This document shows, piece by piece, positions 6,699 to 53,300 of a stretch of DNA of 64,000 bases. Position 1 is the stretch's first letter. Every line of letters starts with the position of its first letter. The notes under the pieces are model-generated. The model was not told where the DNA came from, did no database searches, and saw only the letters and a program-made list of their open reading frames with translations. The translations under genes and the position numbers were made by a program. Source of the stretch: Antedon bifida (Eukaryota; Echinodermata; Crinoidea; Comatulida; Antedonidae); NCBI GenBank assembly GCA_963402885.1, contig OY727103.1, positions 1,490,501 through 1,554,500 on the forward strand, given 5' to 3'.

Positions 6699-6739
6699 GA
6701 TTTAATAACTTGTATTCATCATTGATTCCTATAATATAA

Positions 6740-7230: not shown

Positions 7231-8183
7231 GGGTCCTCCTAAATACCAAGACCTACCAAGACCTACCAAGACCTACCAAGAACTACCAAGAACTACCAAG
7301 ACCTGTCAATTTAAAGTGTTAATTTAACGAAATATGATATATATAGACTTCTAATAGCATTTCCAACAATAAAACCTTAATTTTAGCGCGATATAGACAC
7401 CAAAAATGTTAAATAATCGACAAGCTTCGCGTTCGCGAAACGAACTGAGTTGATGCATACATTGCGTCACAAATGTCCGTATTGCGTCAACTAGTATGAC
7501 CTACCAAGAACTACCAAGACCTGTCAATTTAAAGTGTTATTTTAACGAAATATGATATATATAGACTTCTAATAGCATTTCCAACAATTAAACCTCAATT
7601 TCAGCGCGATATAGACACCAAAAATGTTACGAAAATGTTAAATAATCGACAAGTTTCGTGAAATGAACTGAGTTGTTGATGCATACATTGCGTCACAAAT
7701 GTCCGTATTGCGTCAACTAGTATGGCTCACTGACACTCGACGCAGTTCTCCTGTCATAGGCCAACTGGGTCGTAGGCCTACATTTAACATTTTTGGTGTC
7801 TATATCGCGTTACAATTGAGGTTTTATTGTTTGAAAAGCTATTAGAAGTCTATATATATTATATTTCGTTAAAATAACACTTTAAATTGACAGGTCTTGG
7901 TAGTTCTTGGTAGGTCATACTAGTTGACGCAATACGGACATTTGTGACGCAATGTATGCATCAACTCAGTTCGTTTCGCGAACGCGAAGCTTGTCGATTA
8001 TTTAACATTTTTGGTGTCTATATCGCGCTAAAATTAAGGTTTTATTGTTGGAAATGCTATTAGAAGTCTATATATATCATATTACGTTAAATTAACACTT
8101 TAAATTGACAGGTCTTGGTAGGTCTTGGTAGTTCTTGGTAGGTCTTGGTAGGTCTTGGTAGGTCTTGGTATTTAGGAGGACCC
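7231..8183. mobile_element. Foldback DNA transposon, non-autonomous, 9-bp target duplication
   Basis: A 953-bp palindromic element. Its ends are perfect inverted repeats starting GGGTCCTCCTAAATACCAAG and ending in the reverse complement. Directly outside both ends is the same 9-mer, CGTCCTACT (7222-7230 and 8184-8192), a clean target-site duplication. The termini consist of ACCAAGACCT-type decamers; inside, each arm repeats a module of roughly 200 bp (AATTTAAAGTGTT, GACTTCTAATAGCATTT, CGCGATATAGACACCAAAAA, TTGCGTCACAAATGTCCGTA). No transposase frame is present. A 9-bp duplication with long TIRs fits a Mutator-like foldback element; the superfamily is an inference. Confidence 0.88.
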
Positions 8184-8192
8184 CGTCCTACT

Positions 8193-14032: not shown

Positions 14033-19565
<5,533 letters not shown>

Positions 19566-21727: not shown

Positions 21728-24700
21728 TTAAGAGGAAAACTCTGACTCAGCATCAGCATCAAAGTTCTCCTGAAAATAAAAAGAAAATAAATTGTTTGTT
21801 TAATTTAAAATTGTATCAACAAAACAACTAGCAAAGAACCATTTAAAATGTAATTTGATGTGGTGAAAATTGTTAATTTCAGACGCCATTTTTACCGGCA
21901 AATGTAGGTTTTTTCTTAATGCAATACCCCACGTGTATGGATGCGTGTAGTATGCGAACAAACATATAAACAAACTCTCTCTTATAAATAATAAATGTTT
22001 ATATAGTACTGTACCTCTTGTATACCATAAGGTGGGTCTTCTTCGATAGGCTCTACCCTACCCCCTCCACGAGGATTGTGCAGGCCAGTCTGTGAAAATA
22101 ATTTCATAGTTAATTTCATAGTTAATTTCATATATTTATATCATTATTATATCATATCATTACTTTAATTTTCATCATTATTTTCAACAATAAGCAATTT
22201 TTATTCTTCCAAACAGCAGATAAATAATTGATTACACTTTCAAGACATCTATTATACCAGGGTAGTCATTTATTTTACTATATTAGACTAATTCCATAAT
22301 TTGAATAGTATATAATTTATATTAATACATTTGTCAGTTTCTGGTCGACAAGGCTTTATTTTTTTTTCCAAAAATAAATTAAGAAATGTTTTTACCTCTT
22401 GAATGCCGTACGCTTGTGGACTTTCAATAGGCTGTGGTCCACATTGTTGATGGACAGTCTGTAAATAAATGTTTACATTTTTAAGATATATTGTCTGAGC
22501 AGTGATTTATATTTACTATATAAACATAATTTTGAATGAAATAAATAAAAATATATCATACATTATATAAAGTGTTTAATTACTTTAAAAAATTTGAATT
22601 TTTAGAAAGATCCACTCCACACATGGCCTAATGCCTTTTTAAGTGCTTTAGATATAAATTGTTATTTACCTCTTGAATAGGAATTCTAAAAGGATTTTCA
22701 AATGGCGTCGGCCCTAAAAAGAAAAATAGCATTGATTTACGAGTTGGCAAAAAGAACAAATGCAAAAATTAAAAAAACAATTGAAAAAAGCTATCATGCA
22801 TCAATAAAAAAAAAAACAACTTCACACCTGAGGAATGCCTGCTATGAGGTTTTCTTTTCCTTTTTGATGTTTTCCGTATCCTTATGTTGTTGTTGTTCTT
22901 CTTCTTAGGTGGCCGCTGTTTGGTGACAACTTTCTTGTCTTCTTCACACATTTGTTGCATACCAGCTGATAAAGGTTCAAATTCATCCAGAAACTCTGGA
23001 CTGCATCGAACACCTATAATAATGTAAGGGTAACAGTTTCACATATACTGTCATACACGGTTTCCAAAACAGTTTTCAAACTACATATGGTATGGAAATA
23101 TGTAATTCCTGACCTTTTTCTAATCTACTTATAAATTTATGTTATAGATATCTTAAATTCATGTTTAGGTAACAGTTAACAACAGTAAGTCCTTTGTCAT
23201 TTTCATACCGATGGAGTTATTTGTTTTTAGTGTACAGCATGAACAAATGTTTCTTTTTTAGTGCAAGGCAAATTTCATCTATTTATTTACTTCAAATACA
23301 AATAAAATACACAGCATGATAATTGTTGGGGTTTGCTCAAGTTACAGTTTATATAGAAAACACAGACCAAATTTTCATGCCAGAAGAGAGAAATGTTGTT
23401 TTCTATGGCAGGTATAGGTCAAAAGGCCACTTACCATTTACATTAAGGTTTAACATTTAATATAGGACAATGTACTATAATTATTTTAACAAAATGTAAT
23501 AGTATAATGTGAACAAAATAGTTAAAAAGAGAACCCATATAAGACCTTATGAAATTAATATAAAATAATTAATACATACCTGTACATCCAGAAATTTCCA
23601 TTTTCTTTGTTTCAGCAACCGTTCTTTGCTCTGGAAATCCGAATCTTAAAAAAAAAAAAAATGACAATTTCATATCTTCATGGTAGAATCTTGAGTCTCT
23701 GTGGCTAAAACATTTTTTTTACATTTATCATAATTTGGGTTATGTGTATGTGTTGCAATCTTTTGAATTAATTTAAATATTTAGAATCTAACAAAGATAA
23801 ATCTTACATAGTAAACATAGTCAACATTAACATAAAACACTGAATCCAATATTGGTTTTCTACTTCGTTGTTTGAAAATTCCATTGTGAACTGTCCAGAA
23901 TCTTCAACTGAAGTTTGTTGAAAATCTGGTGATATTGGTGACTCCTCAGAGTCTTCTTTTGATTCATCAGACAATCCGTCATCATCATCATACCTTTGTA
24001 AAAAAGAAAATGGAGAAATTTAAGTAAAATATGCAAAGGTTTGTACCACCAATGACTCAAACAATTTAACCAAAACTTACTTCTCCTTAATGTCTGAAGC
24101 ATCAGCATTTTCCTTTTTTTCTGAATTAAAAAAGTATAAAATAGTTAAAATTAACATTACAATGTTTAACAGTAAAAATAAACATATAAAATACAACCAA
24201 TATTTGTTGTTATAAATAACAACTGAAAATAATGTATGTACAAGATTATCATTATCATGTGATGGTTTAGAACTCTGAATAATATAAATAAAAACAATTC
24301 TTTTTTATGAAAACGCTATTATAAATGATTACCTTGAACATTTTGTTGTTCAGAACATGCCACACTTGCTGCTTCAGATTCATTAAAACCAGTATCAGCA
24401 TCCTGCTCATTGCTATAACAAATGAATAAAAAAGGGTTAAAAGGGTAAAAAAAAATCCTTAGTCTAAACCGTGTTACCTAAAGATATACAGTACATCCAC
24501 TAGCACCAAACAACAAAATTAACTATTTGACAAATTACAAATAAGAAAAATGCAATAAAATAAATTAAAGTAAACTCGGGTTTACAAGATTAAAATAGTC
24601 ATGCCGCCAGGAAGTCAGGGCAAAGGCCAGTATGTAGGTATCCCTTTGGTGAGACAGGAAATGTGTAACTCTTAATTTTCCATTCAATTATGTTTTTGTA

Positions 24701-26794
24701 CTAATTGGATGCTTAAGTGAGTAAGTTATGAAAAGGCAAAAACAATACAGTATAACAAACATTCCTTTTTAAGTAATACAAAAATACAGTTAAAATGCAA
24801 TTAACAACTACTGTAGTACTATACCAACAAGCAAATACAAACTTTATAGCTTTAATTTTTTACCTTCAATAAACTATTGTAACCCCTAAAAGTGGATAAT
24901 AAATCAAAATCTTATGATGAGTATGACTTAATTAAGATTTAAAGATTTAAATATGAAATACTTAAGATTCACTCTCAGAAACTGTTTCAAAGTTCAATCT
25001 GTAAAACTTACCGTATCTGGTCAGCTAGCACCTTATCAGGCAACTCTCTTGGTGGAACTGATTGCTGCTCACTAAGAGCATCAATCTCATTATCATTTCT
25101 GTCAAAATAAAAAAAAACCATCACAAGCAACTGTAGTACATTATAAATATGTATTTAACATGTTTATGTATTTCTACAGTGTCTTTACAAATCACTTACC
25201 ATAGAAGTTGGTGTTGTTTTAAATAAATAAAACTTACATGGAAAGTGCATACTAAACAGTTAATGAAAGTATTAGTCCTAACACTGGTTTATTGTACAAA
25301 CTTAAATATGTAGTGTATAGTATTAGCAGATTTATTTTAAGTGAGAACAATTATGTGCTATCTGTCAATGCTAAGGAATAACGGATTAATAAATTATTTG
25401 CAGATTATAATTAGTATATGTCTTGAGGAACAAAATATCTCAACTTAAATAATATGCCTATTTTTTTCCGTACTTTTTAAAATAAACTTTTATCATGAAA
25501 GTAATTGATCAAATCCCAATATAAAATAGATGCAATTTTGTTTTAATTTTTAATCAAAGTAGTCAAATGGTTATTGAATATGACATTGGTAATTGACAAT
25601 GCGATATCTTGTACTAATATTGTAATGTGATACCATTTTCAAACAATTGCGCTTCTGGAATTTTGGGAAAGTTGACTATGAGGGCGAGGATATAATTAAG
25701 CATGTAATAAAAAACTGTAAAACAACAAATAATACAGTAAATACTATGGATTTGACCAACCAAATTGATTTAATTTCGTTGGCCAAATGTGTACGTTAGG
25801 TCTATAATAGGCCTACAGTATGACCTCTGAATTTTCCTGGTTGTACAACAATTTGTTAGTCCATTATACAAACTTTTAAATTTAACATAAAATAATGGTA
25901 ATTAGTACATTTAAAAAAAGACTTTAAAAAGAAGAAAACAATTATCTGAAATGATAAATTAGTAAAACAGTGTAAATAGCAGTCAACTGGAGACTCTTGG
26001 GCTAGACTAAACTACCTAACTAAATGCAATTTGGAAAGAATTTTGGATGAATATTCTGATTTTGGTTGAGAATCCAATTTTTGTGAAATTAAATTTTGAA
26101 AGAGTAGACAGCAGCATAGAGCAGGGTACAGTATGTTACAAGGCACATGTTGATGTTAAAAAACAAAAAAACAAGTGCATATCCAAAAACTAGTACAGTA
26201 AAGGGGTTTTTATCCATTTAACACACAAACATTCATTATTTTGTATTTACAAATAAAAAGTTTACATTTAGGTATTACCAAATGTCAAAATGATTAGATC
26301 TTGCTAGAAAAAGTTCAGAACACTACACAGAAATTCAAAATTTTAATACAAATGTAAGTAAAATTAGTATAAACTATGAATTTAACAATGAGGGAAAAAT
26401 AGAGGGTTGCAATGAAAAATTACCTTTGAACATTTTGTTCTCAGAAATCTGATAAATTGTAGAAAATGTTCTTGGTCAATAGTCTTGAATTTGAAAGGAC
26501 AATATCATGTAAAACAGTCCAGTATAACAGAAATATTGGATAAACCTTAATGTTATGTTGTACTCCTATTTACATATTAGTCAACAAGATCTAAGCTGAT
26601 ATTATGGATTGGTTTTATAACAATTCATGAGAACTGAGAAATTATTTACTTAAATTTTCAATAAATACAGTATTTATTGTTTTCAGTTTACAGAAATGTC
26701 CAGTAAGCAGATGTAAGGCAGTTTTCTTGACATAGAAGTAACATTTCAAATAGAACTCACAGTATAGTATGTATACTTACTTAAACTCGGACAT
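21728..26794 (-). CDS. YGIQE-module gene A, unknown family
   Basis: I do not recognise this protein. Exons: 26794-26781, 25098-25012, 24412-24333, 24120-24081, 23993-23808, 23644-23580, 23013-22828, 22713-22670, 22458-22396, 22089-22015, 21769-21728. All junctions keep frame, giving 293 residues. The N-terminal half is acidic (YDDDDGLSDESKEDSEES). Residues about 180-215 are strongly basic (KQRPPKKKNNNN, RKTSKRKRKPHSR), consistent with a nuclear signal. Three small exons then each end in the same way: IPIQE, AYGIQE, PYGIQE; the last two also carry a PIE motif and are phase 0 at both ends. The end is acidic (ENFDADAESEFSS). The 23993-23808 exon is the least certain: its 3' part encodes a hydrophobic run (CFMLMLTMFT), and an earlier donor is possible. 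The first coding exon has only MSEF plus two bases; a 5' non-coding exon probably ends at 29396. Confidence 0.72.
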
Positions 26795-27639
26795 GCTCCA
26801 AAACCTAAAAAAAAAAATGTAATAGTTCAGTTGTGTCAAAGCATACAACAAAAGGTAAACCACATTGCGGTGAGGAAAGCCTTAAGGTGTTGTAAACATG
26901 TAACTTTATTATGTATTCAGGAGCACATACTTTTAAATATTCATTCAACAAGGCTGCAAATAAAATACATTTTATTAGCTAAATAATTGCGTCCATAAAA
27001 ATAGTCCCTGCACAAACCCTAGGCCTCATCATTCATAAAACGGCATAAAGGTAGCAGTGCGGTGATGCATACACTCTTGGAGCTCCGCCTTTTTAACTCA
27101 ACGTGAAAATGTCAAATATCAACTGTTTGTTGACATGACACTAATCAATTCATTGATAATAGTTTAGATACCACGAAAAAGTATCTAAACTATTATAAAT
27201 CATGATAGTTAGATAGTTTACTTTATTACTACGTACCAACAGTGATAAAAAGCAAATTTTGTTCACAACTTGACTGCATTGTGCTTAAAACATGAACTTT
27301 GTCAAGTGATTATAATATAGAATGACTCATAAGTTGAAGTCATATAGGCCTCACATTTTAAAATACATGCATTTTGTAAATACTGCAGAAGTGTAGCCTG
27401 GTTGCTGTCTAGGGAGGTGCGAAAATTGTAAATGAGGAACTAACCGCATGATCAACCCCCTCACCCTGGGGTTGACCTAAGAAAATTTTGAAAAATAGAG
27501 TACACTGCAGCCCTCACCATAAGAGCTAAGAAAATTTAAAGAACTAGAGGGTTCGCTTGCGCACTCTCTAGTGAGTGTACCCGAATGGACCAATGCCTCT
27601 GGAAATTGAGGCTCGGGTGACACCCATATGACTCCTATA

Positions 27640-28170
27640 GTAACTAAATCGCACCTAATTAGTTCAATTACTAAAACAAATTGTATTTCACGTAAAGTAA
27701 AGGCTTTTATAATTAATTAGTTGAATATCTAAAACAATTCAGTTGAATCACTAAAATCACATTATAGTTCACGTAAAAGTAAAGGCCTTCAATAAAAGTT
27801 AAATTACTAAATAAAAACAAATTGTAGTTCACATAAAGTAAATGCCTTTAATCATAAACGATTAGTTGAATATCTAAAACAAATAAATTGTAGTTCACGA
27901 TTCAGTTGAATCACTAAAATCACATTGTAGTTCACATAAAAGTAAAGGCCTTAATAAGTTAAATTACTAAAAACAAATTGTAGTTCACATAAAGTAAATG
28001 CCTTTAATCATAAACGATTAGTTGAATATCTAAAACAAATTAATATTGCATTAGTTCACGATTAATTGAATCACTAAAATCACATTGTAATTTACGTAAA
28101 AGTAAAGACCTTCAATAAATAAATAAACTATTACTAACTAAAATCAAATTGTAATTAGAACGTAAAGTAA
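27640..28170. repeat. Degenerate tandem repeat upstream of gene A
   Basis: Irregular units of about 60-130 bp built from AATTACTAAAAACAAATTGT, AGTTCACATAAAGTAAATGC and ATTAGTTGAATATCTAAAAC. Related but shorter sequence occurs at 42830-43085 in the duplicated copy. Confidence 0.75.
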
Positions 28171-29389
28171 AAGCCTGCCATTTCAGCCCCAATATTTCAT
28201 AATACAAATTATATTAAGAGTTATTCATTTTGCCATGTATTTGTATTTTCTAGACATATCGACGAATAAAAATATTGAATGTCGCCACCAACTGCAATTT
28301 TGCGGGAAGTCACGGGACATGGAAGCCAGTTGAACAGCGCGAGTGTGTGAAAATTACCTTGTGATATCCACACATTTCGAAAGGAAATGCTAAAATTTGT
28401 CATAAAATGGAACAATAGCGTAATACTGAACACTATAATGTTATCATTCTACGTTTTGTGGTACATCTGAGATAGATCAGGTAGATATCCAAGGCAGAGA
28501 TTCTCCATTGTATTCGCCTATGTCAGAATTAACCATAATTTATATATAGATGTTTGACAGAATGACCATACTTTAAAATAATTAATAGGCGTGTCAATTG
28601 TCATATCTTTTGAGCCTGTCAAATTTGAATGCTCAGAAGAAACTGACTGCCTACTGCTAATTACTAACTACCGTACCCAGGGCCAGGCAGGTACTGTGGC
28701 TAAGGATACTTCCATTAGAAAACCAGCATTGTGTCATCACATGCTGTAAAAATCAATAGATTAGGCTACTAAAAAAATCTTAAATGGTCAGTAAAGATGA
28801 TCGACCTAGTCCTAATCATTGCGCAGTGACAATTTTATTGCAGAAAAAAAATTAAAATACAATTTTCCTGATCCCAGATCTTGGTCTGGTAGAAAAGGCA
28901 GTAGTACTAGTAGTGACCTCGACTGACAGGCCACCATCCTAGTGCATTAATCAGTCTAGGCCTGCAAAAATATTTATTATAGCTCAGGCTACACTATATT
29001 TGTGCTGATAGGTGCTAATTTACTAATACTAGCCTAGACCTAGCCTATCATCAGGTTAAAAATAAAACTTAATAAAAGCCATGCATACTATTTGATATTT
29101 TACTAGCTAGGATAGCCTGGATCATGTAGCTACGATACGAGTACTAGCCTACTAATAGCCTAGGCCTAAGTCTTTAGGCTAGTTAGGCCTACTAGCCTAG
29201 GCCTAGGCCCTAGTAGTAGTAGTAGTAGTAGGGCCCAGCCAGGAGTAGGGGCAGGCAGGGTTCAAAGAAAGAGTCGTGTTTTTTAAAGTAATAATTGAAT
29301 GATTTACCAAAACAATTAACATGCATATCTAATGATATTAATTATTACTGTCTTCTCTAATTTACAGTAGTGTATGTTTTTACGTACTT

Positions 29390-29480
29390 ACTCACTTTCT
29401 AGGCCTAGGCTAGGGATTTTTCTCACACACTACGCACCAGATGATTCCCGCGCGAAATGTAGTAACACTGTAATTTATGC
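29390..29480 (-). promoter_or_regulatory. Probable promoter and non-coding first exon of gene A
   Basis: On the minus strand a GC-richer segment (CATTTCGCGCGGGAATCATC) leads through AGGCCTAG motifs to a strong donor, AGAAA then GTGAGTAAGT (donor at 29395-29390). The first coding exon at 26794 has its own acceptor, so a first exon is needed, and this is the best candidate. It is preserved in the duplicate at 44184-44290. Confidence 0.5.
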
Positions 29481-31054
29481 AATTGCAGAGTCACCAATCA
29501 CAGGAGAGTTGAATATTAATTGTCCAATCACCGAAGAGTCGAGTTATCAGTAAGTAAATGATACTAAAAATAACCAACACGGTCATGAACAACCACGGAA
29601 CAATTCCCATTCAATTCAAAATATTACTTATAAATATTATTAATTTAAAAAAAAAATAATGATAATAATATGAATAATAATTTTGAAACTAGATTTAAAC
29701 TTTGACAAATTATCTGCACAACAACACCTTGTGGATGTACACTAGAAAACGCACAATTAGGACCAGATAATATGTTGTTGGTGCTAAATTCTGTCTAGTT
29801 TGTGCCTTATAGTATATACAGTATAATACTGTATACATACTATACATACAGTGTAGTGTAGTTGAAATTACTGGACCCACTTTTAATCAAATTTTTAACA
29901 TGATGACATCATCAAAATCAAACAATAATTGAAGATAACAATTTTGGAAGATAATTGTTTAGCAACAACATATTAAAATGTTGAAAAAATTCTGATACAT
30001 AGAATTGAGATGCGCGCTGTTTTAAATGTGATGAACTATGACGCAAAATCTGAAAATTCGACTTTTTTTATTCAACAACTGGCCACATGATGATGTCACA
30101 ACATCCAATTGGCAAAATGTTTACATGAATCCGTATCCCAAATTAAAATAGTTGTAACTCATGCGAAAGATAATTAATTATCCTAGAGAATTTTTTTAAC
30201 TGGGAGAAAATGGAATACGAACAAGCAAGATGCAAAATTCATTAAAAAAAAATGTGAATGGCCATATGACGACGTCAGACTACTTGTCAAGCAACAATGT
30301 TACATGTATTCATATCTACAACTCATTAGCTTTCAAAATAAGTTAAAAAATAGTGGTTCATCAGTCTTCCTGAAGCGCAATAATAGATTTAAAATAAGAA
30401 TATTTTTACATAAATGTTTATTAAATAGCAATTTTTAAGTGTACTGTTTTTAAACTTTAACATGCACATGCATGCAAGTCAAATTCATAAAAATTAATGA
30501 AATTTATCACAGAAGGTATGAAGAACAAAAATCAATTGCAAAAACTGACTTTCTATGCTATGTACGAGCTGTACGCAAGTGTGCGTGCGCGCAATGCAAA
30601 ACAAATCGAAAATTTCGAAATGTACAAAATTTTCCTGAAATTTATAGAAAATTGGTTAGAAATTAATTTTGCACAATTTAAAACTTTAAATGCACGTGCA
30701 TGTGTAACTTTGTTAGGAACACGCCATTTTTACTCCATAGAAAGTTTGCCCTTGATATGAATTAAATTTTCACCAAGTATCAATGCAAAATGACTTTTGG
30801 TTTTTAATCTATGATCAATCAATTTTATTCATAAGATTGCGCCCAAGTCACGTTGCGCAACTTTGATGTCATTTAAAAACAGGTGCACAACTTCACATAA
30901 ATCTTGAGATGTTGAAATAAGTTACGAAATGTTATGTTTACACGTTTTAGAGGTGCAGATAACTAAAAAAGGAAAATGTTGTTAAAATTATACACTCACT
31001 TAATTGTCATTCAAAAAATGTTTTATTGAAATTGTCATCTATGTGATGTTAAGT

Positions 31055-31545
31055 CTAGCAAAAGAACCTGTGACCTTACAGGGTGAGCGCTATAACCACT
31101 AAACCACATACAATGGTACCTGGAGTACATATGATGCTTATAAAGATGACAATAAATTACATTTAATTAGTGTAGTGTTTACGTAGTTATTTATGTAAAT
31201 AGCCTACTTGTTCTGCAAGTTGCATTACTTGCATATTGGTCTGCAGATGGTTAGTCCTTTATAATAACGGGGCATACAACGAGGGATACAATAGCGTTGG
31301 TTATAGATGCGATACATGCTAGTAGCCTACTGCACACAACGTTTGTTATATGAATGTGAGAATACAAATAAAAGCACTTGACTGGATTATTTGAAACTGT
31401 TTCTTTATTTGGTATATCACAATTAGTACAGCAGTTAAATCTACTAATAAGCACTTAAGCAAATTAAAATATGGGTGCTCCAGTAGCTCCATTATGTGTA
31501 TATCAGATTTCTATATGATTCAACAATGTTGTGATTACATAATAG
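31055..31545. mobile_element. tRNA-headed interspersed repeat, copy 2
   Basis: Shares CTGTGACC, TTACAGGGTGAG, GCTATAACCACT and ACCACATACAATGGTAC, and later AAATCTACTAATAAGCACTT, with 5431-5800. The T-arm sequence (GAACCTG) is decayed relative to that copy, and an extra 100 bp or so is present in the middle. Confidence 0.6.
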
Positions 31546-31735
31546 ATAGTATCAAAGAACTTCCATATGAATTGAGGCTTCAACAATTAAATCGCAGTCA
31601 CAAGTTTAAGAGGAGACCTAATATAAACAAACAAAATTCTTATACAAAAAGTGGATACTACAGTAGTAGCATTAACCGTGAGAAAACAATTTAGTTTGAC
31701 AATAATAAATCACTGGAACGCATTGCCATAGTCAT
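31500..31735 (+). pseudogene. Degraded C-terminus of a non-LTR retrotransposon reverse transcriptase
   Basis: One frame reads ELPYELRLQQLNRSHKFKRR, and after a frame change reads RKQFSLTIINHWNALP then a stop at about 31730. The patterns RLxxLN...RR and ...RxxxxWNxLP are characteristic of the ends of LINE reverse transcriptase proteins (CR1/Jockey-like). Only this tail is present and it is broken. Confidence 0.65.
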
Positions 31736-32139
31736 AGTCAATGCAACTTCTGTAAATGTTTAGTATTGGTCAAAAAAGGACTTTAATACCATTCTGGGCT
31801 TTGAAGCATAACTAACAATATTTATAATTTGATAAAAGATACTTTACAGAAATTGAGGTAGATCGCATATTGCTATTCTAATTTTTTTACAAGCTACATT
31901 TAATGTAAAAATAAATACTATAATGGTCCTATTGCGATAACTTTTTTCTTTTCTAGGCTAGACCTAAAGACCGTTCACCGTGAGATACTTAGGTTGTGCA
32001 TTGTTTCTCTCTGTTTATTATAAATTACCATAAAACGTACTTTTAAGACAAAGAATGACCTGGTTTAATGTTTTTAAAGTAATATATACACATTTTTTTT
32101 ACAAAACGGCAAAAATTGTAGGGAATGTGTCTTTAATTT

Positions 32140-32270
32140 AAGGTCATACAGTACAACTCTCCTAAAGCTATTTAAATGTGCAAATCATCATCATCATTTT
32201 AAAGTAGGAAAGAATTTAAGATTTGAAAGAAACAGTGCTGCTTCAGGAGAGTTAGACACCCAATATTATG
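32140..32270. repeat. Inverted repeat downstream of YGIQE gene B
   Basis: CAACTCTCCTAAA (32154-32166) faces TTCAGGAGAGTT (32241-32252). It corresponds to the pair at 20968-21109 beside gene A, but with a shorter loop. Both lie beyond the stop codon, 0.28 kb away here and 0.62 kb away in A. Confidence 0.6.
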
Positions 32271-32533
32271 GGTTTTTTTTCTTATAATGCACACACAAAA
32301 AAAAACATAGCAAAATATTTAAAAGCAGCTTTTTCTCAAATATTTCTATTAAATTTACAAATTTACAAGTAAGAATGACATGTGGCAGAATCATTCTACT
32401 GCCCTCGCAATGAGCACTAAAATGTTTTTCCTTCAATAGTTATAAGGAAAAACATTTTAGTGCTCATGGTTGGATGGAGAAAAGATGGAAGACTACTGGC
32501 AAGATTTGAGGACAGGTGTAGAGAAACAATGAG

Positions 32534-35500
32534 TTACGAGTCTGACTCCTGAAAAAATGTAAAGAAAATAAATAATTAACATTTTAATTTAAAACCAATA
32601 AAATTTAAACAATTGTTCATAGTGTTAAAAATTATGTTTGTACAATACCTCTTGAATGCCATAAGGAAGGTCTTCTACTATAGGCTCTACTCCACAAAGA
32701 TTGTGAAGGCCAATCTGTAAAAATAATTTAATGGATGCATTTAATTAATAAACAGACCTCATATTTAACACACGTTATTTTTTATTTTATTTCATACGCA
32801 TCCAACAGTGAATAACCTGCCTATTCCAGGATGGATGAACTATTTTATAGTTTATCATGCTTATAAATAAAGTCTCATTTGCGTTTTATGAAAAGGAGTT
32901 GAAAGATTGGATTGGATTGGACCCTAAACCCTTAACCTTGTTAACCACCAAGTTACAGCTCCACTATATTTTTTTTCATTTTGGAGAGTAAATCAATATT
33001 TGTACCTCTTGAATGCCATAATACAGTTCTTCCTCTATAGGTTGGGGTCCACATCTTTCATTCCGTTCAGTCTGTAAATAATAGTTGATACTGAAGACAT
33101 CTCTTATAATGGGCGGTGATTTATTATATGTTCATTTAATTGTCAATGAGTTATATATATTGTGTGTTTATAATTTTACCAAATGTTTAATTACTAATTT
33201 GAATTTACACTCATTGAAAGATAAACTCCACATATATTTTGTTACAAAGTGCTTGGTTATTTGCTTCAGGAAGATTTAAATTAAATGAGAGTATCCCTTT
33301 GCAAAAAAGCCGTATACGAACGTATACGATTTACATACGTTTCGTATATGTTTCGTATAGGAAGTCCATTTCGTATACGAAACGTATACGCCAATTCGGA
33401 AGTTCCTGCCCGCATAATAAACATATACGAACCGTATACGATCATTTATAAACAATTTCCTAATTATACGATCCGTATACAATCCGTATACGATCCGTTT
33501 ACGATACGACGCGTGTACGTATACAAACTGCATCATATTACCAAGCGAAAAGGGACTGTCCCTCTTTTTACAAGACGACGATAGCATACGTTACGATGGC
33601 AGGAGCATCTTGACTGCAGTAATTCGTGTACAATTTGTTTGTTTTTTTTTCAGTCGGTATATGTACATTAAATTCCCTATGATGATTTAGTTCATATTTT
33701 TCGCTAATGAAAAAAATTGGTGCTGTATTTTACAAGACGTTATTTTTCTATCAAGCATAAAAACCCACCCAGGCTGTTCCGTCTTGTTTATCCCCTCTGC
33801 TATTTCTTTACCTTTGGTACGTTCCATTAATAAGTGAATCATACAAAATGTGCTGTTATTAATTTGAAAGTGCTTTAATTAATTATAATGTACTTGGAAA
33901 TAAATAAATAAATTTTAAATTGGGCCCGCAGTATATTAAATTTAAAACGAGTAAGTAAAATCCATAAATTACGATGTAACAAAAATGTAGAATACATGTG
34001 ACTCCCTATTATATATATGGAATGATCCAAATAAATTCGCCCAAAACGTGCCTGTGTTGTGTGTGCTGCATGCATACATGCATCACATGGATGGATCAGA
34101 TTTCATTCATTTTCAATCATGTGTTGTTGTCCAACAGGAAAAAAAATGGGATGTAGGCCTAGTTACAGTGGGCCAAAGTAGATAGTAAATTCGATGACTT
34201 CTAGCTAGCTAGGCTATAGGCATATTGTAATTGTATAGATCGAACATGCAGTAACTAGCTACTGCAGCAGCTCTAGTAAACTAAGAGTAACTAGGCCTGG
34301 GAAAAATACGCCAAGGAAAAGAGTCTGTGGTACACTCATTGTGAAAATAAGCTAGCTAGCTTTCCCCTATATATTAGATTTGGTTATATTGTATTATTTT
34401 AATAACCTACTCTAGCTAGTAGTAAATCAACAACGGTGAAATGGAAATACGATGCATTATGGATATCATCGTTGCAAAGTTAGGGGGTGCCAACAAAACA
34501 TTCAACAGCCAAAAATACGAAAAAAGAAGCTCCGACGTTTTAAAGCATTTTACTATTTTAGGCATCAGAACTAATTGCTGTAAATTTCCTAGAGTTGTCA
34601 CTGATGAATACAATTTAACATAACCTACTTTGGTACGTTCCATTAATAAGTGAATCATACAAAATGTGCTGTTATTAATTTGAAAGTGCTTTAATTAATA
34701 ATAATGTACTTGGAAATATATAAATAACTTTTAAATTGGGCCCGCAGTATATTAAATATACTGTAACTTAAAAAATCCAAATGATAAATTGTACGCGAAC
34801 GTAGTAAAACCAGATAAATGTTAAATACTTATTTTACATCTCCCTGGTAAACGCTGATAGGCCAAGCGGTATTTAATTATATTTTTATTGATTTAATTCG
34901 TAAATTAAAAAAAAATCGTTAATATAAATATGTGAACCTTTGTAACTTTTTGTTGTATATGCGCGGGCGCGAGATACTTAATAAGATAGGCTTTATTCAT
35001 ATCATATGTTGGAGTGGTAAACAACTATGAGCCTAGTTGCGAGGATACCGCTTCGTAACTACGTATTGACGTATAGACGTTTTACTATTGTATGTAATAA
35101 ATTGTGTACAATATTAGTAGCTAATAGTTTTGTTGTGCCCCTCTGTACACACGGCTGCTGGATATTTGTTTATCATTTTAATGAATGTAGTACGTGTCTA
35201 ACTCCAAATAAAGATATAACTAGAACACATTTTTGATCTTTTTCAAGAATCTGATAAACATGACTCATCTTTTTACATAATATACAGCATCAGCATGTAC
35301 AATCTAATTTAATTATCACACAATTGAAAAGAAAGGACAAGGATTTCAAATAAACTGTTACAAATAAACAATTATGAATGAAATAGTTGGGGTATTGTTG
35401 GGTCCATGGGAAATCAACAATGTTTAGTAGACTTATTTAATTTGTTATTTACAGTTGAGGGTGGTTATTTTTTAAAGACATGTTTTATGATTTCTTAATC

Positions 35501-38500
35501 ACCAAGCAGAAATACCGCTGAGATAAATGAAAGCAATTCAATCTGTTCGCTTAACCGGTAAAAAATTGAAAGAAATTCGATATACTGTATTTACTATAAC
35601 CACTAATTTTGTTTTTTAATTTTTTTCTACGGAAGTGATCAACTTCATATTCAAAATCCGATTGTATTCATCGTTAAATAATAATTATTATATAATGTTA
35701 ATGTACATATCAACACATCCCACTTCTGTTTTGGATCATGGTTTTCCTCTTCCGCATTATTTGCCAAAGTATTGTTACTCCATCTCCACTATACTACAAC
35801 ACATGTCGCGGAATAATATCGCTTAACATAAACGATGTAATTTGACCACCTAAAGCTCGCACGTGGTGTGACGAATTGAGAAGATCGAACGACGCGACGT
35901 ACCCGATGATATGCATGATTGGCCACCAGAGAGCCGAGTCGACCACGAGTTGCAACTGTAGGCAACCGAGCGACGATCGGTCGTCGTCGGCGGCTGAACT
36001 TACTGACCTCTGTCATATTTTATAAAGGAAAACTGCAAACAACATCGTGAAAATGGCCCCTTGTCTTGTCCTTTCTAGGCCTACCTAGTAGTAGTATACC
36101 TGTTTAGCGTATTTTATTGACTTGCGAAAAACGTTGTTTGAATTTTATCGGTAGCCTAGGCTATCTAATAAATAGAAATAAATATGGTCTTATGTCCTAG
36201 CTGCTACTACTACTACTACTACTACTATACTAATAATACTACTAGACTAGTAGTGGCTGGTGCTAGCTAGGCCAGAGAGCCGGCCTACGTACGTATTTGT
36301 TGTAATGACAATTTAAATGTTTTATTTAGCTCTATTCTACTCATTACTACTATTATAATTTATAAAATGGCCTAGTTTGTTCGTATATGATTCGTATACG
36401 TCCCGTATACGATATTCTTATCATGAATAAACAACGTATACGTTACGTATGCTAAACGTATACGACGCCAACTCTTTGTGGAGCAACAGAGTGGAAATAA
36501 TGTAAACAGTGAAATCGTATACGATCCGTATACGTCGTATACGTTTTCAGCGTATACGGATCGTATACGGCTTTTTTGCAAAGGGATTATCACAGTTTAT
36601 TTCAATCCTATATAAATTGTTATTTACCTGTGTTCCAAATCCAATGTCAGGTTGGTTTAATTCAGGTCTTAATTGCTGGATACATCGTGAAATATGTTCA
36701 TTCAGTACTTCTGCACTGCATCCTATAATAAATGTATACATTAGTTGTACTTGCCTTCGTAATTGTAGCAATTCCAAGTAGATAACAAATAGCTAATTTA
36801 ATTATTCTCACAATTACTACCAAAATAAACCCATGAACTGACCACAAAAATTACATAAATACCTGTGCATTCAGGTATAGTATTGGCTGGTGATGGTTGT
36901 AGATTGTTAGCTGGCGAAGCACCAGTCTTCTCACATTTTTCTGAATAAAAAAAGTTTTAATTAAATTCAATATTATGTCTGAAAACTATACAGTAGAAAA
37001 AAATAAATTAAACAAAAAATTTGTTGGTAAAAAAAAACATTGGGTCATACAAATTGAGCTTGTCATTTTTGGCAACTGTTGATAAACAATGATTATACCA
37101 TCTGATTCTTCAGAACTAGCATCTGATCTGAAAGCCGCACTTGCCTCCCCAAAACCAGTATCCGGTTCTTGCTCATTTCTATACGACAAAAAAACCCCAA
37201 ATTAATTTTTGTTAACTGTTACAGCAGATAATAACCAGGTTTAAAATATAGGATTAAACAAAAAAAAACATAAATTGAGAAAATAGTAAGAATATTGGAT
37301 AACGTAGAAAAAAAGTAGAGCCTAATGGGTTGTCTGAAAATAAAAAATGTTAGTTGTATATGTCAGAATGCAGGTTAGAGAGCAATAGCCTATTTTCATT
37401 TTTTCTGCTCATTTTTTGTGCTTCGCAGATCTCTAGTTATGTTGTAACTTGGCCAGCAGATGCATGTATAATGTAGTTGTGAACTTGACCTTGGTTTAAT
37501 GAAAATATGGTCGCGTAACATAACTACACATGATTTTCTAAACTTCTTAAATTGAATATAAATTCAAAACTAACAGCCTTCTTAAACTGAGGGTCATCTT
37601 CCTGTATCATCAGCAAAATTTTTGAAGATGGGCTTTTTGCACAGACGCGTTTAAAAATGCTCAAAAACGATGCGCGCAATTTTGTCACACTGCTTGTACG
37701 CAGCTTAGAAAGACTGTTTTTGCACGTTCTTTATTCCTTTCATTTTTGATGAATTATGAATTAAAAATAATGACACAGTACACGTGCAAGTCAAACTTTA
37801 AAAATCGTGTGCTTGAAAATGCGAATTTGTGTAAAAATATGCCTATTTTAATCGATTATAACTCTGGGATAGTGACTTAACTTATTTAGATCAAAATTTA
37901 GACCATAAGTATGTTATGGCATCATCACATGGCCATCTGAATTTTAAAAATTGACACACTTCATCACATTCAATAAACTTATTTTTCATTTTGAAAAAGT
38001 CAAATTCAAACAATCGAATAAATGTGAGTGGCGTAAAATAAAAACTAATCGTCAACTAAACAGTTTACAATGCCAATTTTGTTAACAGTAGACATTGCCT
38101 TGCTGCGGCCTACTGTAGACTAAGCCTAATAATTAGCATAATATGCATGTTATGATGCGCTGCGCAATAAATACATTTTTTTTTTTAGTCACTGTATTGC
38201 TGCAATGCAATAATTTACTATGCACATGTTATATTATAATAATAATTGATCTGAAAAATAAATGAATTGAAATGAAATATAAAAAAAAGAAGAATGTAGG
38301 TGTATGTGCTCCCTCCCAAAAATGTAACATTCTCACCAAGCAAATGAATAACCAAGGTTAAAAGTGTTTGTGTGATATTCTAAAGAATTTACTTGAATTA
38401 CAGTACAAATGATACAGTTACTAGTTACTACATCGATACTATTGCATTGCACATCGATACTATTGCATTGCACATCGATACTATTGCATTGCACATCGAT

Positions 38501-40558
38501 TCTATTGCATTCCACATTGATACTATTGCATTGCACATCGATACAATTGCATTGCCCATTGATAGTATTGCATTGCACATTGATACTATTGCATTGCACA
38601 GCGATACTATTACATTGCACAGCGATAGCTATTGCAATAAACATTTTATTATTAAATGCTTGAATTTTAATATATTAACCACATATAAATAACTCTTATA
38701 TTATATCAAATTATACAGTCAGTATACCAATTAGAGGATGACAATATTTAGTGTATAAAATGTATATAAAACAAGCTTTGTAATAGGGTCAAAGTAAGTT
38801 ATTTATGAAAAGGGTGCAATATAAATTTATTATTATTACTTATTTTGATCCAAAAATCCATGCACCAAGCCACATGACCACTGAACTAAGTCAAGAGCAA
38901 TCAAGACTTTTAATTTAAATAACATTTTATATTTACTTACTGAAAATTAGTGTGTTATCTACAGTAAATAAACACAAATTTATTATTGATGACATTGTGA
39001 ATGTAAAATAACTGTATAATATATACTTTTCATTAGCTCTCAACGTTACAAAGTATCCAATAACTTACCGAGGTTCCTGGTTTTTGGGCAAATTTCTTGG
39101 AAGACCTGAATCCTCATCAAGAGAACTTAAACCGACCTTCTCCTCACTACTGCAAAATAAAAAATGAATTATGAACATTTGTACAATTATTTTTAGAAAA
39201 TTAACCATCCATATAACCAGGTAGGTATAAATACCAACATTAGGGGTTGTCTGAACATGAATTATGCATGTAAAGTCAACTCTCCCAATAATAAAAACCT
39301 TTGGGCTGGCTTAATATGTCTGGTAAGTTCCGAATGTGGTTTTAATAGTAGAGAAAATAGAGAAAATTCTGGTATTGGGAAAGTTGACAATGAGGATATA
39401 ATTAAGCATGTAATAAAAACTGCAAAAACAACAAACAATAATAATAGTAAACATATAAAAGTATGGATTTGGAAATAATATAATAATAAATAATATGGAA
39501 ATCTGTAGCCTACAGACTTATTGACCTCTGAATTTTCCTGGTTGTACAACAATGTGTTAGTCGATTATAAAAACTTTTAAATTTAATGTCAAATAATGGT
39601 CATTAGTAGGTTTAAAAAAAGACTAAAAAAAATTATCTGAATAAATGAAATGATAAATTAGTAAAACATAGTTAAAAAAAACTGGAGACTCTTGGGCTAG
39701 ACTAAACTACCTATCTAAATGCAATTTTAAAAGTTGGAAAGAATTTTGGATGAATATTCTGATTTTGGTTGAGAATCCAATATTTGGGAAATTTAATTTT
39801 GAAAGAGTTGACAGCAGCATAGATGTAGGGTACAGTATGTTCAAGACACAAATTGATGTTAAAAAACAAACAAAAAAAGTACATATCCAAAAAGTATTAA
39901 AGTGGTTTTTATCCACTTAACACACAAACATTCATTATTTTGTATTTACAAATAAAAAGTTTACATTGATTCATTTTAGGTATTACCAAATGTCAAAATG
40001 ATTAGATTTTGAAGATCACATAGACATAACAATCTAGGAATAATGATGTTTGGGTACTCAATAGGTTTAAGTGCACACACTTCACTACAAACTCACACAA
40101 GCAGGAGAGGTGATTAGGTTATTGTTATAGAAAGTTCAGAACACTACACAGAAATTCATCAATTTTAATACAAATGCAAGTGAAAATGTGGGAAAAATAG
40201 AGGGTTGCAATGAAAAATTACCTTTGAACATTTTGTTCTCAGAAATCTGGTAAATTGTAGAAAATGTTATTGGTCAATAGTCTTTAATTTAAAAGAATAG
40301 ATCACGTAGTCCAGTATAACAGAAATATTGGATAAACCTTGATGCTATGTACATATTAGTCAACAAGATAAGCTGATATTATCGTTATAAAAATTCATGA
40401 GAAAATTATTCACTTAAATTTTCAATAAATACAGTATTTATTGTTTTCAGTTTACAGAAATGTCCAGTAAGCAGATGTAAGGCAGATTTCTTGTCATAGA
40501 AGTAACATTTCAAATAGAACCCACAGTATAGTATGTATACTTACTTAAACTCTGCCAT
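32534..40558 (-). CDS. YGIQE-module gene B, paralogue of gene A, unknown family
   Basis: Exons: 40558-40545, 39149-39069, 37178-37099, 36940-36863, 36722-36628, 33071-33006, 32714-32649, 32548-32534; all in frame, 164 residues. Shared with gene A: the start exon (MAEF against MSEF), an exon opening RNEQ with DTGF, an exon ending CTG, and two phase-0 exons with PIE...YGIQE (CGPQPIEEELYYGIQE and EPIVEDLPYGIQE). The basic nuclear-signal exon and the acidic exon of A have no counterpart, so B is much shorter. Its fifth exon gives a possible helix (SAEVLNEHISRCIQQLRPEL) and ends GFGTQ, reminiscent of the YGIQE end. The intron between 36628 and 33071 contains a 3.3-kb DNA element. The probable first non-coding exon ends at 44190. 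Function unknown. Confidence 0.7.
33292..36588. mobile_element. 3.3-kb non-autonomous DNA element with CGTATACG-rich ends
   Basis: Ends are inverted repeats: ATCCCTTTGCAAAAAAGCCG then TATACGA on the left, the reverse complement on the right. Both subterminal zones (33310-33530 and 36380-36575) are packed with the 8-bp palindrome CGTATACG and close variants. Inside is a direct repeat of about 120 bp (33815-33936 and 34627-34755, TTTGGTACGTTCCATTAATA onward). I see no transposase. A target duplication is not clear. It lies in an intron of gene B, about 40 bp downstream of the donor of exon 5. Confidence 0.8.
38431..38637. repeat. 21-bp minisatellite in an intron of gene B
   Basis: About nine to ten copies of a unit close to GCATTGCACATCGATACTAT, with substitutions increasing toward the right end. 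Because the period is a multiple of three, several frames stay open across it on both strands; none looks like a gene. Confidence 0.93.
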
Positions 40559-41084
40559 GTTCTTGAAAATCTAAAAAAAAAAAACATGTAATATTTCAGT
40601 TGTGTGTCAAAGCATACATGTACAACAAAAGGCAAACCACATTGCAATGAAAAAAGCCCCAAGGTGTTGTAAATATGTTCACCACATATTTTAAAATATA
40701 ATTCATTCAACAAGGCTGCAGATAAAATACATTTTATTAGCTAAAAATGGTCCCTGCACAAACCCTACTAGGCCTCTTCATTCATAAACTGGCATAACGT
40801 AGCAGTGCGGTGACGATGCAGTATTTGCACTCTTGGCGCCGCCATTTCAGTTGTAGATAGGCTAACGTAAAATGTCAAATTAACTGTTTGCTAACATGAA
40901 ATTAAATCACAATACAGTACCACATAAAAGTGTCTTAACTATTATCAATAACGATTAGATATTTATTGCTAGCTAGTACGTACAACAGTGTTAAAAAGCA
41001 AATTTTTTTCACCACAACTTGACTGCACTGTGCCTCAAAACACAAACTGTGTCATGTGATTATAGGATACCAGCGTTGCCAGCG

Positions 41085-42430
41085 ATAAAATTTAATTATG
41101 CCGTAGCCTGTCTCAAATAAATTGGGAAAAAATAATTGCCAAATCCCCAAAAACAGCACCACCAACGGTTGCATGTCTAAAAAACGTCTGTAAAATAGGG
41201 CCTAAAATTGTATCCCCATGTCATTCAAAATGTATATTTTTAGTTTTGTGTGTAATAACTAAAATTAAAAATTCCCAATATCTGGGGTGCGAAAATGATA
41301 ATTGTGAATGACACCAACACTAAAACACTTAAAATAGGAAATAAAAAATATATATTAAGTGTCTCCAGGACCTCAGCCCACCATGGTCGAAAAATGGCAG
41401 TTATAATTTAAAATAGGAGATAAAAAATATATATTATTATTCATATATTATTATTAAGTGTCTCCAGGACCTCAGCCCACCATGGTTGGGGCTAAGAAAT
41501 TTTGAAAAATAGAGCTGCTCAATGGCACTTAAGTTGAAATAAAAATGTATAAGAGTCTCTAGGACCTCTGCCCACCATGGTCACTGACTGGTGGGGCTGA
41601 GGTAAGAACATTTGGGAAAATAGGGCTGCTACGATGCAAATGGGACCTAATTTGAAATATGGGAAACAATTTCTCTAGGAGACAAATTTGTTTAAATTAG
41701 AGCTGAATACTGAATAGCTTTATTTGTCCATTATCATATAAAATAATAATAGAAATTCTTCTTAAAGATTGGCAAATATATATTAGTACAATTAAAAACA
41801 GATATACATATGAAATATAAACAAACATCAAAAAATAGAATACACATATTATTGCACAAAAACTTAAGTTTAAAAAGTAGATTTTTGGAAGTTAAAAGTA
41901 AAAATACGATAAAAAGCATAAAATAGATAGATACTAAGCTGCTAAGTTACTGCCCTTTTAAGGGTTGTGGTAGGGGTGCGGCCGCTTATAATTATGAACT
42001 GAAAAAACAAAAAAACCTGTTATGTTTTCATTGAATTGTCTCTACAATTCTGGGATCCAATAACCTGCATAATCCTGAAATAGCCTCTTCGGTTTCGTTG
42101 TGCTGCCTATCTCACACACGGTAGTTTGTGAGCAGGCTTCCTATCAGAAGAGTTGATTGAGTCCGAAATGAAAGGATAGAGGAACTATTGTACGGAAAAA
42201 AACTGACAGACCTGTTTGTAAGATATATTGTGTAAGGTGATATACGAAATTGCAAGATTAAACAAAATATTATTCTTGTTCTGTGGTATGTTATTTTTTT
42301 TGGTTGTTCAAAAAACACAAAATTATGCCATATTATGCTAAAAACGGCTAAATAATGCCGCGGCATTATGCCAGATGCTGTGGGCCTCTAAATAATGCCA
42401 AAAAGCATAATAATGCCAGAAATGGCAACT
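41085..42430. mobile_element. Insertion specific to copy B of the duplication
   Basis: At the matching point of copy A (about 27320) this sequence is absent. The ends may be short inverted repeats: GTTGCCAGCGATAA on the left and TAATGCCAGAAATGGCAAC on the right. Inside are three copies of a block containing GACCTCAGCCCACCATGG or close variants, a sequence also found inverted at 4655-4675. No coding frame is evident. Confidence 0.6.
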
Positions 42431-44183
42431 ATCAGGATGACTCATATTTTAAAATACATTCACTGTATTAGTATTTTTACATATTTTTTTTCTGCAGAGG
42501 CGTAGCCTGGTTGCTGTCTAGGGAGGTGCGAAAATTGTAAATGAGGAACTAACCCCCATGATCAACCCCCTCCCCCTGGGGCTGACCTAAGACAATTTTG
42601 AAAAATAGAGTACACTGCAGCCCTCACCATAAGAGCTAAGAAAATTTAAAGAACTAGAGGGTTTGCTCGCGTACCCTCTAGTGGGTGTACCCGAATGGTT
42701 CTCGAAAACATGACCAACGCCTCAGGAAATTGAGGCTCGGTTGACACCCATATGACTGAATCCTATAGTAACATTGAATCGCACCTAAATTTAATTAAGT
42801 GATTAATAAATAGCATAAATAATTGGTTAAATTACTAAAACAAATTGTATTTCACATAAAGTAAAGGCCTTTATAATTGATTAGTTGAATATCTAAAACA
42901 AATAAATTGTAGTTCACGATTCAGTTGAATCACTAAAATCACATTGTAGTTCACATAAAAGTAAAGGCCTTAATAAGTTAAATTACTAAAAACAAATTGT
43001 AGTTCACGTAAAGTAAATGCCTTTAATCAATATAATTGATTGGTTGCATATCTATAACAAATGAATATTGCATTAGTAGTTCACGATCAATTTTGCGGGA
43101 AGTCACGGGACACGGAAGCCAGTTGAACAGCGCGAGTGTGTGAAAATTACCTTGTGATATCCACAAATTTCGAAAGGAAATGCTAAATTTTGTCGTAAAA
43201 ACAAAAATGTAACAATAGCGTAATACTGAAAACTAATGTTATCACTCTACGTTTCGTGGTACATCTGAGATAGATCAGGTATCCAAGGCAGAGATTTTCC
43301 ATTGTATTCGCCTATGTCAGAATTAACCATAATTTATATATAGATGTTTGACAGAATGACCATACTTATATAATAGGCGTGTCAATTGTCATATCTTTTG
43401 AGCCTGTCAAAATTGAATACTCAGAAGAAACTGACTGCCTACTACTATTACTAACTACCCAGGGCCAGGCAGGTACTGTGGCTAAGGATACTTCCATTAG
43501 AAAACCAGCATTGTGTCATCACATGCTGTAAAAATCAATAGATTAGGCTACTAAAAAAATCTTAAATGGTCAGTAAAGATGATCGACCTAGTCCTAATCA
43601 TTGCGCAGTGACAATTTTATTGCAGAAAAAAATTTAAAATACAATTTTCCTGATCCCAGATCTTGGTCTGGTAGAAAAGGCAGTAGTACTAGTAGTGACC
43701 TCGACTGACAGGCCACCATCCTAGTGCATTAATCAGTCTAGGCCTGCAAAAATATTTATTATAGCCCAGGCTACACTATATTTGTGCTGATAGATAGGTG
43801 CTAATTTACTAATACTAGACCTAGCCTATCATCAGGTTAAAAATAAAACTTAATAAAAGCCATGCATACTATTTGATATTAATACATTTACTAGCTAGGA
43901 TAGCCTGGATCATGTAGCTACGATACGAGTACTAGCCTACTAATACTAATAGCCTAGGCCTAAGTCTTTAGGCTAGTTAGGCCTACTAGCCTAGGCCTAG
44001 GCCCTAGTAGTAGTAGTAGTAGTAGGGCCCAGCCAGGAGTAGGGGCAGGCAGGGTTCAAAGAAAGAGTCGTGTTTTTTAAAGTAATAATTGAAAGATTTA
44101 CCAAAACAATTAACATGCATATCTAATGATATTAATTATTACTGTCTTCTCTAATTTACAGTAGTGTATGTTTTTACGTACTT

Positions 44184-44290
44184 ACTCACTTTCTAGGCTA
44201 GGCCTCCTAGGCTAGTCTTTTCCTTTAAAAACAATCACCGCTCTCTCCTCACACGACGCACCAGATGATTCCCGCGCGAAATAGTAACAC
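44184..44290 (-). promoter_or_regulatory. Probable promoter and non-coding first exon of gene B
   Basis: Counterpart of 29390-29480. The minus strand carries TTTCGCGCGGGAATCATCTG and the same AGAAA/GTGAGTAAGT donor (44189-44184). It differs by a roughly 30-bp replacement (GTCTTTTCCTTTAAAAACAA on the + strand) between the donor and the GC-rich part. Confidence 0.45.
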
Positions 44291-44929
44291 TGTAATTTAT
44301 GCAATTGCAGAGTCACCAATCAACAGGAGAGTTGAATATTAATTGTCCAATCACCGAAGAGTCGAGTTATCAGTAAGTAAATGATACTAAAAATATCCAA
44401 CACGGTCATGAACAACCACGGAACAACAATTCCCATTCAATTCAAAATATTACTTATAAATATTATTAATTTTTAAAAAAAATAATGATAATAATATGAA
44501 TAATAATTTTGAAACTAGATTTAAACTTTGACAAATTATCTGCACAACAACACCATGTGGATGTACACTAGAAAACGCACAATTATGACCAGATAATATG
44601 TTGTTGGTGCTAAATTCTGTCTAGTTTGTGCCTTATAGTATATACAGTATAATACTGTATACATACTATACATACAGTGTAGTGTAGTTGAAATTACTGG
44701 ACCCACTTTTAATCAAATTTTTAACATGATGACGTCATCAAAATCAAACAATAATTGAAGATAACAATTTCAGAAGATAATTGTTTTAGCAACAACATAT
44801 TAAAAATTTGAAAAAATTCTGATACATAGAATTGAGATGCGCGCTGTTTTAAATGTGATGAACTATGACGCAAAATCTGAAAATTCAACCTTTTTTATTC
44901 AACAACTGGCCATATAATAATAATAATAA

Positions 44930-45180
44930 TAGTCCATTCTTATATAGCGCATATAAGCAAGCTCTCAATGCGCTGAACATTATTACCCCAGTCATTTTTT
45001 TGGATCAAACACACAAGTAAAAAAATACTCCCAGAATGCAGCTAGTAATCAGCGCAAAGTTGTGTCTTGGTCTAACCGGGTTCCCAATTATACACCTGTG
45101 TGGAGAGAGGCAAACGTAAGTAAAGTATCTTGCCTAAGGATACAAGCAATGCGGCGAGAGTTGGATTCGAACCTCGATAT
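44930..45180 (-). mobile_element. SINE-like insertion in copy B of the duplication
   Basis: Copy A reads straight through from CAACTGGCCACAT to GATGATGTCACAAC at about 30085. In copy B a 250-bp segment lies between them. It has an (ATA)n tail at 44930-44940, a TTATATAGCGC...CTCAATGCGCTG segment, and on the minus strand a B-box-like GAGGTTCGAATCC near 45165-45177. A tRNA-related SINE in minus orientation fits. Confidence 0.65.
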
Positions 45181-46240
45181 GATGTTGTCACAACATCCAA
45201 TTGGCAAAATGTTTACAGAAAACGTGTTACTCATGAGTATCACTTTTTATTTTGACATATTGAAATTTACTGTAAAGATGAAAATGAGATTTTTTTGATG
45301 TGATGATGTCATACAAATTAAAATATAATTAAAGATAACTAATTAACCTAGAAAAGTTTTTAAACTGGGGAAAAATGGAATACGAATAAGCAAGATGCGT
45401 TCTATTAAATGCGATGCTTAAATGAGACAAAAATTCATTATTTTTTATTTGAATGGCCATATGATGACGTCAGACAACTTGTCAAGCAACAAAATTACAT
45501 GAATTCATATCTACAACTCATTAGCTTTCAAAATAAGTTAAAAAATGGTTGGTCAACAGCCTTCCTGAAGCGCTATAATATATTTAAAATAGGCATATTT
45601 TTTCATAAATGTGCATTAAATAGCAATTTTTAAGCATATTTTTTTTAGTTTTTAAACTTTAACATGCACGTGCGTCATCATTCTGCAAGTCAAATTCATA
45701 AAAATGAATGAAATTTATCACAGAAGGTATGAAGAACAAAAATCAATTGCAAAAACTGTCTTTCTATGCTATGTACGAGCTGTACGCAAGTGTGTGTGTG
45801 CACAATGCAAAACAAATTGAATTTCGAAATGTACAAAATTGTCCTGAAATGTATAGAAAATTGGTTAGAAATTAATTTTGTGCAATTTAAAACTTTAAAT
45901 GCGCGTGCATGTGTAACTTTGTTTGGAACACGCCATTTTTACTCCACAGAAAGTTGACCCTTCATATGAATTAATATGAGTATCAATGCAAAATGACTTT
46001 TGGTTTTTAATCTATGATCAATCAATTTTATTCATAAGATTGCGCACAAGTCATGTTGCGCTTTGATGTCATTTAAAAACATGAGGTGCACAACTTCACA
46101 TAAATGTTGACAAAGTTACAAAATGTTATGTTTACACGTTTTAGAGGTGCAGATAACTAAAAAAGAAAAATGTTGTTAAAATTATACACTCTCACTTAAT
46201 TGTCATTCAAAAAATGTTTTATTGAAATTGTCATCTAATA

Positions 46241-47138: not shown

Positions 47139-53300
<6,162 letters not shown>

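Follow-up and report, generated by a model that had tools for sequence, protein, structure and literature searches.

Two minus-strand genes, gene A and gene B, lie in the window, the 64,000-nucleotide stretch of Antedon bifida DNA that was analysed. Rebuilt from the window, gene A (26794..21728) has 11 coding exons amounting to 882 nt with the stop codon and encodes 293 aa, and gene B (40558..32534) has 8 coding exons (495 nt with stop) and encodes 164 aa. Every internal junction of both chains is AG/GT, the phases match and the frame is closed, which bears out the initial annotation of two in-frame multi-exon genes of 293 and 164 residues. As predicted exon models, A and B look like real, fast-changing protein genes (Table 1). 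The least certain part of the models is the 3' end of A exon 5, because an odd hydrophobic stretch (YWIQCFMLMLTMFT) stands there; no counterpart of this exon was seen in B by self-comparison of the two genes.

The pair is flanked by two copine-like genes in opposite orientation, at 17589-19565 (+) and 49038-49430 (-). Intron 5 of gene B carries a 3.3-kb insert (33295-36585, ends counted by hand) with inverted ends (CCCTTTGCAAAAAAGCCGTATACGA) and many GTATACG words near them, which looks like a non-autonomous DNA transposon. Elsewhere in the window, CARD and Death-domain reading frames, which we take to be RAIDD-like, adjoin at 5876-6701 (-); an inverted repeat with two 402-base arms of 97.5% identity occupies 7228-8186; a tandem array of GIPYSGNPLFRESLIQ-like units at 61523-62235 is open in all three forward frames; and a dispersed repeat of ~40-170 bases occurs at many places between 12077 and 61261, its copies lying both close to the copine and KIN17 genes and away from them.

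Table 1. Features assigned to genes A and B, in window coordinates.
Feature	Position	Strand	Basis
A coding exon 1 (MSEF)	26781..26794	(-)	exon model
A exon 2, acidic N-terminus	25012..25098	(-)	exon model; aligns with B exon 2
A exon 3 (NEQDADTGF...)	24333..24412	(-)	exon model and A/B alignment
A exon 4, KEN tripeptide inside	24081..24120	(-)	exon model and residue scan
A exon 5, acidic, 3' end uncertain	23808..23993	(-)	exon model
A exon 6	23580..23644	(-)	exon model
A exon 7, helix-like start (SPEFLDEF..., by eye), then lysine/arginine block	22828..23013	(-)	structure and function inferred
A exon 8, module 1 GPTPFENPFRIPIQE	22670..22713	(-)	exon model and module scan
A exon 9, module 2 CGPQPIESPQAYGIQE	22396..22458	(-)	exon model and module scan
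A exon 10, module 3 VEPIEEDPPYGIQE	22015..22089	(-)	exon model and module scan
A exon 11, acidic tail and stop	21728..21769	(-)	exon model
B coding exon 1 (MAEF)	40545..40558	(-)	exon model
B exon 2	39069..39149	(-)	exon model and A/B alignment
B exon 3	37099..37178	(-)	exon model and A/B alignment
B exon 4, 5' end similar to A exon 4, 3' end to A exon 6	36863..36940	(-)	end comparison
B exon 5, 5' end similar to A exon 7, donor to A exon 8	36628..36722	(-)	alignment and end comparison
B exon 6, module 2 CGPQPIEEELYYGIQE	33006..33071	(-)	exon model and module scan
B exon 7, module 3 CGVEPIVEDLPYGIQE	32649..32714	(-)	exon model and module scan
B exon 8, tail ESDS and stop	32534..32548	(-)	exon model
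Gene A putative promoter and non-coding first exon	29396..29529	(-)	motif scan; transcript start inferred
Gene A promoter elements	CCAAT starts 29494, 29524; E2F-like TTTCGCGCGGGAA 29445-29457; donor GTGAGT after 29396	(-)	donor by hand count
Gene B putative promoter and non-coding first exon	44190..44352	(-)	motif scan; transcript start inferred
Gene B promoter elements	CCAAT starts 44316, 44347; E2F-like site 44269-44281	(-)	donor position by hand count
A 5' block: upstream region, exon 1, most of intron 1	25700..31041 (lower limit approximate)	(-)	self-blastn and identity profile
B 5' block, alike A block	39367..46237	(-)	self-blastn and identity profile

Duplication, the 5' block and probable exon fusions

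Self-comparison of the window, in which the alignable parts are homologous exon by exon, shows A and B to be the products of an old tandem duplication. Identity between their 5' blocks, counted over aligned columns in bins of 200 bases, is 0.76-1.00 in 27 bins out of 29; some bins hold large gaps, and gapped blastn gives 77-94% for the main pieces. The best stretch (A 28.2-30.0 kb) reaches 0.95-1.00, and identity collapses inside intron 1, below 25.8 kb, where the last two bins give 0.54 and 0.38. Downstream of the block the synonymous divergence is 0.7-0.9 and the introns scarcely align. Because the 5' ends resemble each other much more closely than the remainder does and the likeness stops so abruptly, homogenisation of the block after the duplication, by gene conversion or by a second duplication between the genes, is the likeliest account; uneven constraint is a less likely cause.

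The middle of gene B is shorter in a specific way. B exon 4 looks like a fusion of A exons 4 and 6, and B exon 5 like a fusion of A exons 7 and 8; the 20 bases at the B exon 5 donor are identical to those at the A exon 8 donor. In each of the four fusion end comparisons 0 of 500 shuffles (single-letter, not dinucleotide) reached the observed score, as against 498 of 500 in a control comparison of the end of B exon 5 with the end of A exon 7. Two internal deletions in B would be the simplest account, though a comparison of A with B alone leaves the direction unpolarised. The second fusion would remove both the lysine/arginine block and module 1, and so would explain why B has neither. The number of modules thus varies as anticipated, with three in A and two in B; the proposal that symmetric exons come and go cleanly agrees with this difference in count but not with its apparent manner, since the loss in B looks like an exon-fusing internal deletion.

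The module exons

Five modules, in A exons 8-10 and B exons 6-7, fit the pattern P-[IF]-[EV]-x(4)-[YI]-[GP]-I-Q-E, each over 12 residues. The mini-exons ending in YGIQE are entered in phase 0, as described earlier, and measure 63, 75, 66 and 66 bp; the related exon ending in IPIQE is A exon 8 (44 bp, entry phase 1), whose module 1 deviates from the others. The formula PIE-x(3-5)-YGIQE of the initial annotation needs amending: across the five modules the gap is always exactly four residues, and the PIE does not hold throughout, the second module of B reading PIV.

A six-frame scan of the window with the loose module pattern gives these five places only, with GT directly after each; the same pattern has no match in 60 Markov-1 simulated windows, in which the bare pentapeptide [YFIW][GP]IQE matches seven times, never followed by GT. 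The genome search covered 315,563,634 bases (315.6 Mb) in 27 contigs. YGIQE alone carries no meaning there, given 51 matches versus 88 for its reversed control. YGIQE followed by a GTR donor has four matches, all within A and B, and its reversed control one; this search misses modules whose pentapeptide has changed, IPIQE among them. When protein A was searched against the genome, all eight matches lay in gene A itself; since B was missed, this search responds poorly to short exons that have diverged and may overlook diverged relatives elsewhere in the genome.

Fast evolution around conserved modules, as first suggested, is seen in the comparison of A with B: 20 of 57 aligned residues are identical over exons 1-3, versus 13 of 21 and, for module 3, 17 of 22 in the module exon pairs, and nonsynonymous change (pN) differs between modules and exons 1-3 with a permutation p=0.0002. 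Over the 43 module codons dN is 0.20 and dS 0.72, a dN/dS of 0.29 (bootstrap 0.09-0.69; 6 of 2000 replicates at 1 or above), so the module exons behave as constrained coding sequence, with the limit that a pairwise A/B ratio cannot tell whether both copies are constrained. For the 57 codons of exons 1-3 the values are 0.67 and 0.88 (dN/dS 0.76, bootstrap 0.32-1.57), and for the 17 codons of the helix-like start of A exon 7 and B exon 5 the ratio is 0.55 (0.06-2.14). The N-terminus evolves fast and shows no detectable constraint; its ratio does not demonstrate positive selection. In the four exon pairs whose lengths were compared, A and B differ by 6, 0, 3 and 9 nt, always a multiple of three.

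Several known short-motif classes were compared with the modules. The TRAF2-type ligand motif, [PSTA]-x-[QE]-E, was rejected by eye: PIQE occurs in A module 1 and PIEE in A module 3 and B module 2, and A module 2 and B module 3 have neither. STAT3-type SH2 domains bind Y-x-x-Q; YGIQ is present in four of the five modules and missing from A module 1. The KEN box is an APC/C substrate signal; KEN stands at residue 63 of A and nowhere in B, and this candidate was also rejected. The core of LC8 ligands is given as [TVI]-Q-[TV], with T or V after Q (PMC3078936); the LC8/DYNLL motif was rejected as all five modules read I-Q-E. Among LC8, TRAF2 and STAT3, no class appears to fit all five modules.

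Putative promoters and predicted proteins

Upstream of each gene lies a putative promoter in which two CCAAT boxes, spaced 30 bp (A) or 31 bp (B), stand just upstream of an E2F-like site, with a GTGAGT donor just downstream; the inferred start site precedes the first coding exon by 2.6 kb (A) or 3.6 kb (B). An E2F-like site with paired CCAAT near the inferred start, the arrangement looked for as E2F/NF-Y control, is thus present in both genes. On the minus strand of the window CGCGGGAA occurs twice, once per gene and within TTTCGCGCGGGAA; the full TTTCGCGCGGGAA occurs twice in the window, and the shorter TTCCCGC, on either strand, five times. Since both promoters fall within the 5' block that is alike in the two genes, they are not independent evidence. 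Genome-wide, the layout of two ATTGG followed by TTTSSCGC has 12 matches, two of them at A and B and eight in two repeat-like clusters, with three for the reversed control; every one of the 12 lies on the reverse strand, leaving the forward strand without a match, which may be a fault of the gapped search. The ORF lists at two of the ten other sites (L025 and L029) contained no gene recognisable by eye.

Clusters of E2F-like and CCAAT elements are typical of cell-cycle genes. The layout is rare genome-wide; at A and B it gives a hint, though no proof, that these are cell-cycle or germline genes. Peaks of E2F4 and NF-Y are described as overlapping in human ENCODE data, and CCAAT and CDE-CHR elements are said to cooperate at G2/M promoters (PMC7793273). 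What A and B have in common with such genes is confined to the promoter, namely the E2F-like site and the CCAAT pair at a spacing of 30-31 bp; neither protein has a Pfam match above cutoff.

Both proteins begin with an acidic region (23 D/E and 8 K/R in residues 1-80 of A; 16 D/E and 6 K/R in residues 1-60 of B), so the earlier statement that B lacks both the acidic N-terminus and the lysine/arginine block is right for the block and wrong for the acidic part. In A this block, with K or R at 14 of 37 residues and no D/E, is likely a nuclear signal. Both proteins keep a short segment of helical appearance (by eye), CS[PA]E[FV]L[DN]E..., and, judged by composition only, are probably disordered for the most part. 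With E up to 10, Pfam gave one match for A, far below cutoff (9.8 versus 32.3 bits), and none for B, and phmmer against PDB sequences gave none for either. A literature text search for YGIQE returned, as far as titles and abstracts go, only an unrelated context of bacterial pili. The motif matches nothing in the sources compared (Pfam, PDB sequences, YGIQE in the literature); proteins of the presumed kind, small, largely disordered and with side-by-side copies of a docking peptide, are common.

Interpretation of the gene pair

We tentatively propose that A and B form a lineage-restricted two-gene family, in which P-[IF]-[EV]-x(4)-[YI]-[GP]-I-Q-E, a short linear motif that would be new, may have spread by duplication of its own exon and a cell-cycle promoter may have been kept alike by gene conversion while the proteins diverged. 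The modules are probably binding motifs that dock on one partner. For function we favour, tentatively, a disordered adaptor that is expressed in the cell cycle, acts in the nucleus and carries its multivalent peptides at the C-terminus: the promoter would confine expression to dividing or germ cells, the product of gene A would enter the nucleus through its lysine/arginine block, and the C-terminal modules (three in A, two in B) would bind the same partner side by side, avidity arising from repeated weak peptides. Gene B, without the nuclear signal and one module, probably by internal deletion, may provide a shorter form with another location or a competitor. ASCIZ, a multivalent disordered hub ligand of LC8 (PMC5963919), is similar in that it repeats a short peptide with a central Q within a protein that is disordered (or, here, looks so); the difference is that LC8 motifs have T or V after Q (PMC3078936) and all five A/B modules have E.

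A distinct possibility, which falls short of being probable, is that A and B are diverged members of a known conserved disordered cell-cycle or meiosis family whose docking motif is the module; the motif would then not be new. Profile models of short disordered proteins are insensitive, so that such membership could escape detection, and the helical-looking segment kept in both copies fits such a family, as does the promoter-like arrangement, which resembles that of cell-cycle genes (PMC7793273). The Pfam and PDB results at E up to 10 speak against it. For gene B itself, the missing A coding sequence and the 3.3-kb insert with inverted ends in intron 5 would suit a decaying, unused copy with deleted exons; we consider this unlikely, as the B frame is intact across eight exons, module 3 keeps its 17 of 22 residues and the module dN/dS is low, although this ratio is only moderate evidence because a pairwise value cannot assign constraint to both copies.

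Symmetric micro-exons also raise the question of a variable secreted protein. Schistosome micro-exon genes encode mostly secreted proteins with a leader; no leader was seen by eye at the acidic N-termini of A (MSEFKNDNE) and B (MAEFNSEEK), and A has a strong lysine/arginine block that is likely a nuclear signal. Such genes resemble A and B in being fast evolving with short symmetric exons (PMC5825161), and the short phase-0 exons here could be skipped without a frame break; unlike in those genes, most A/B exons are not micro-exons, and the module exons number only three and two. A secreted product of this kind is thus very improbable.

On the reading of a lineage-restricted family with its own motif, the A/B pair opens no new class of mechanism. 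If confirmed, it would be a compact case in which a motif exon multiplied inside a gene and deletions that fuse exons then cut back the set in one of the duplicates, the promoter remaining alike, and it would provide a new, testable peptide motif with a likely nuclear partner.
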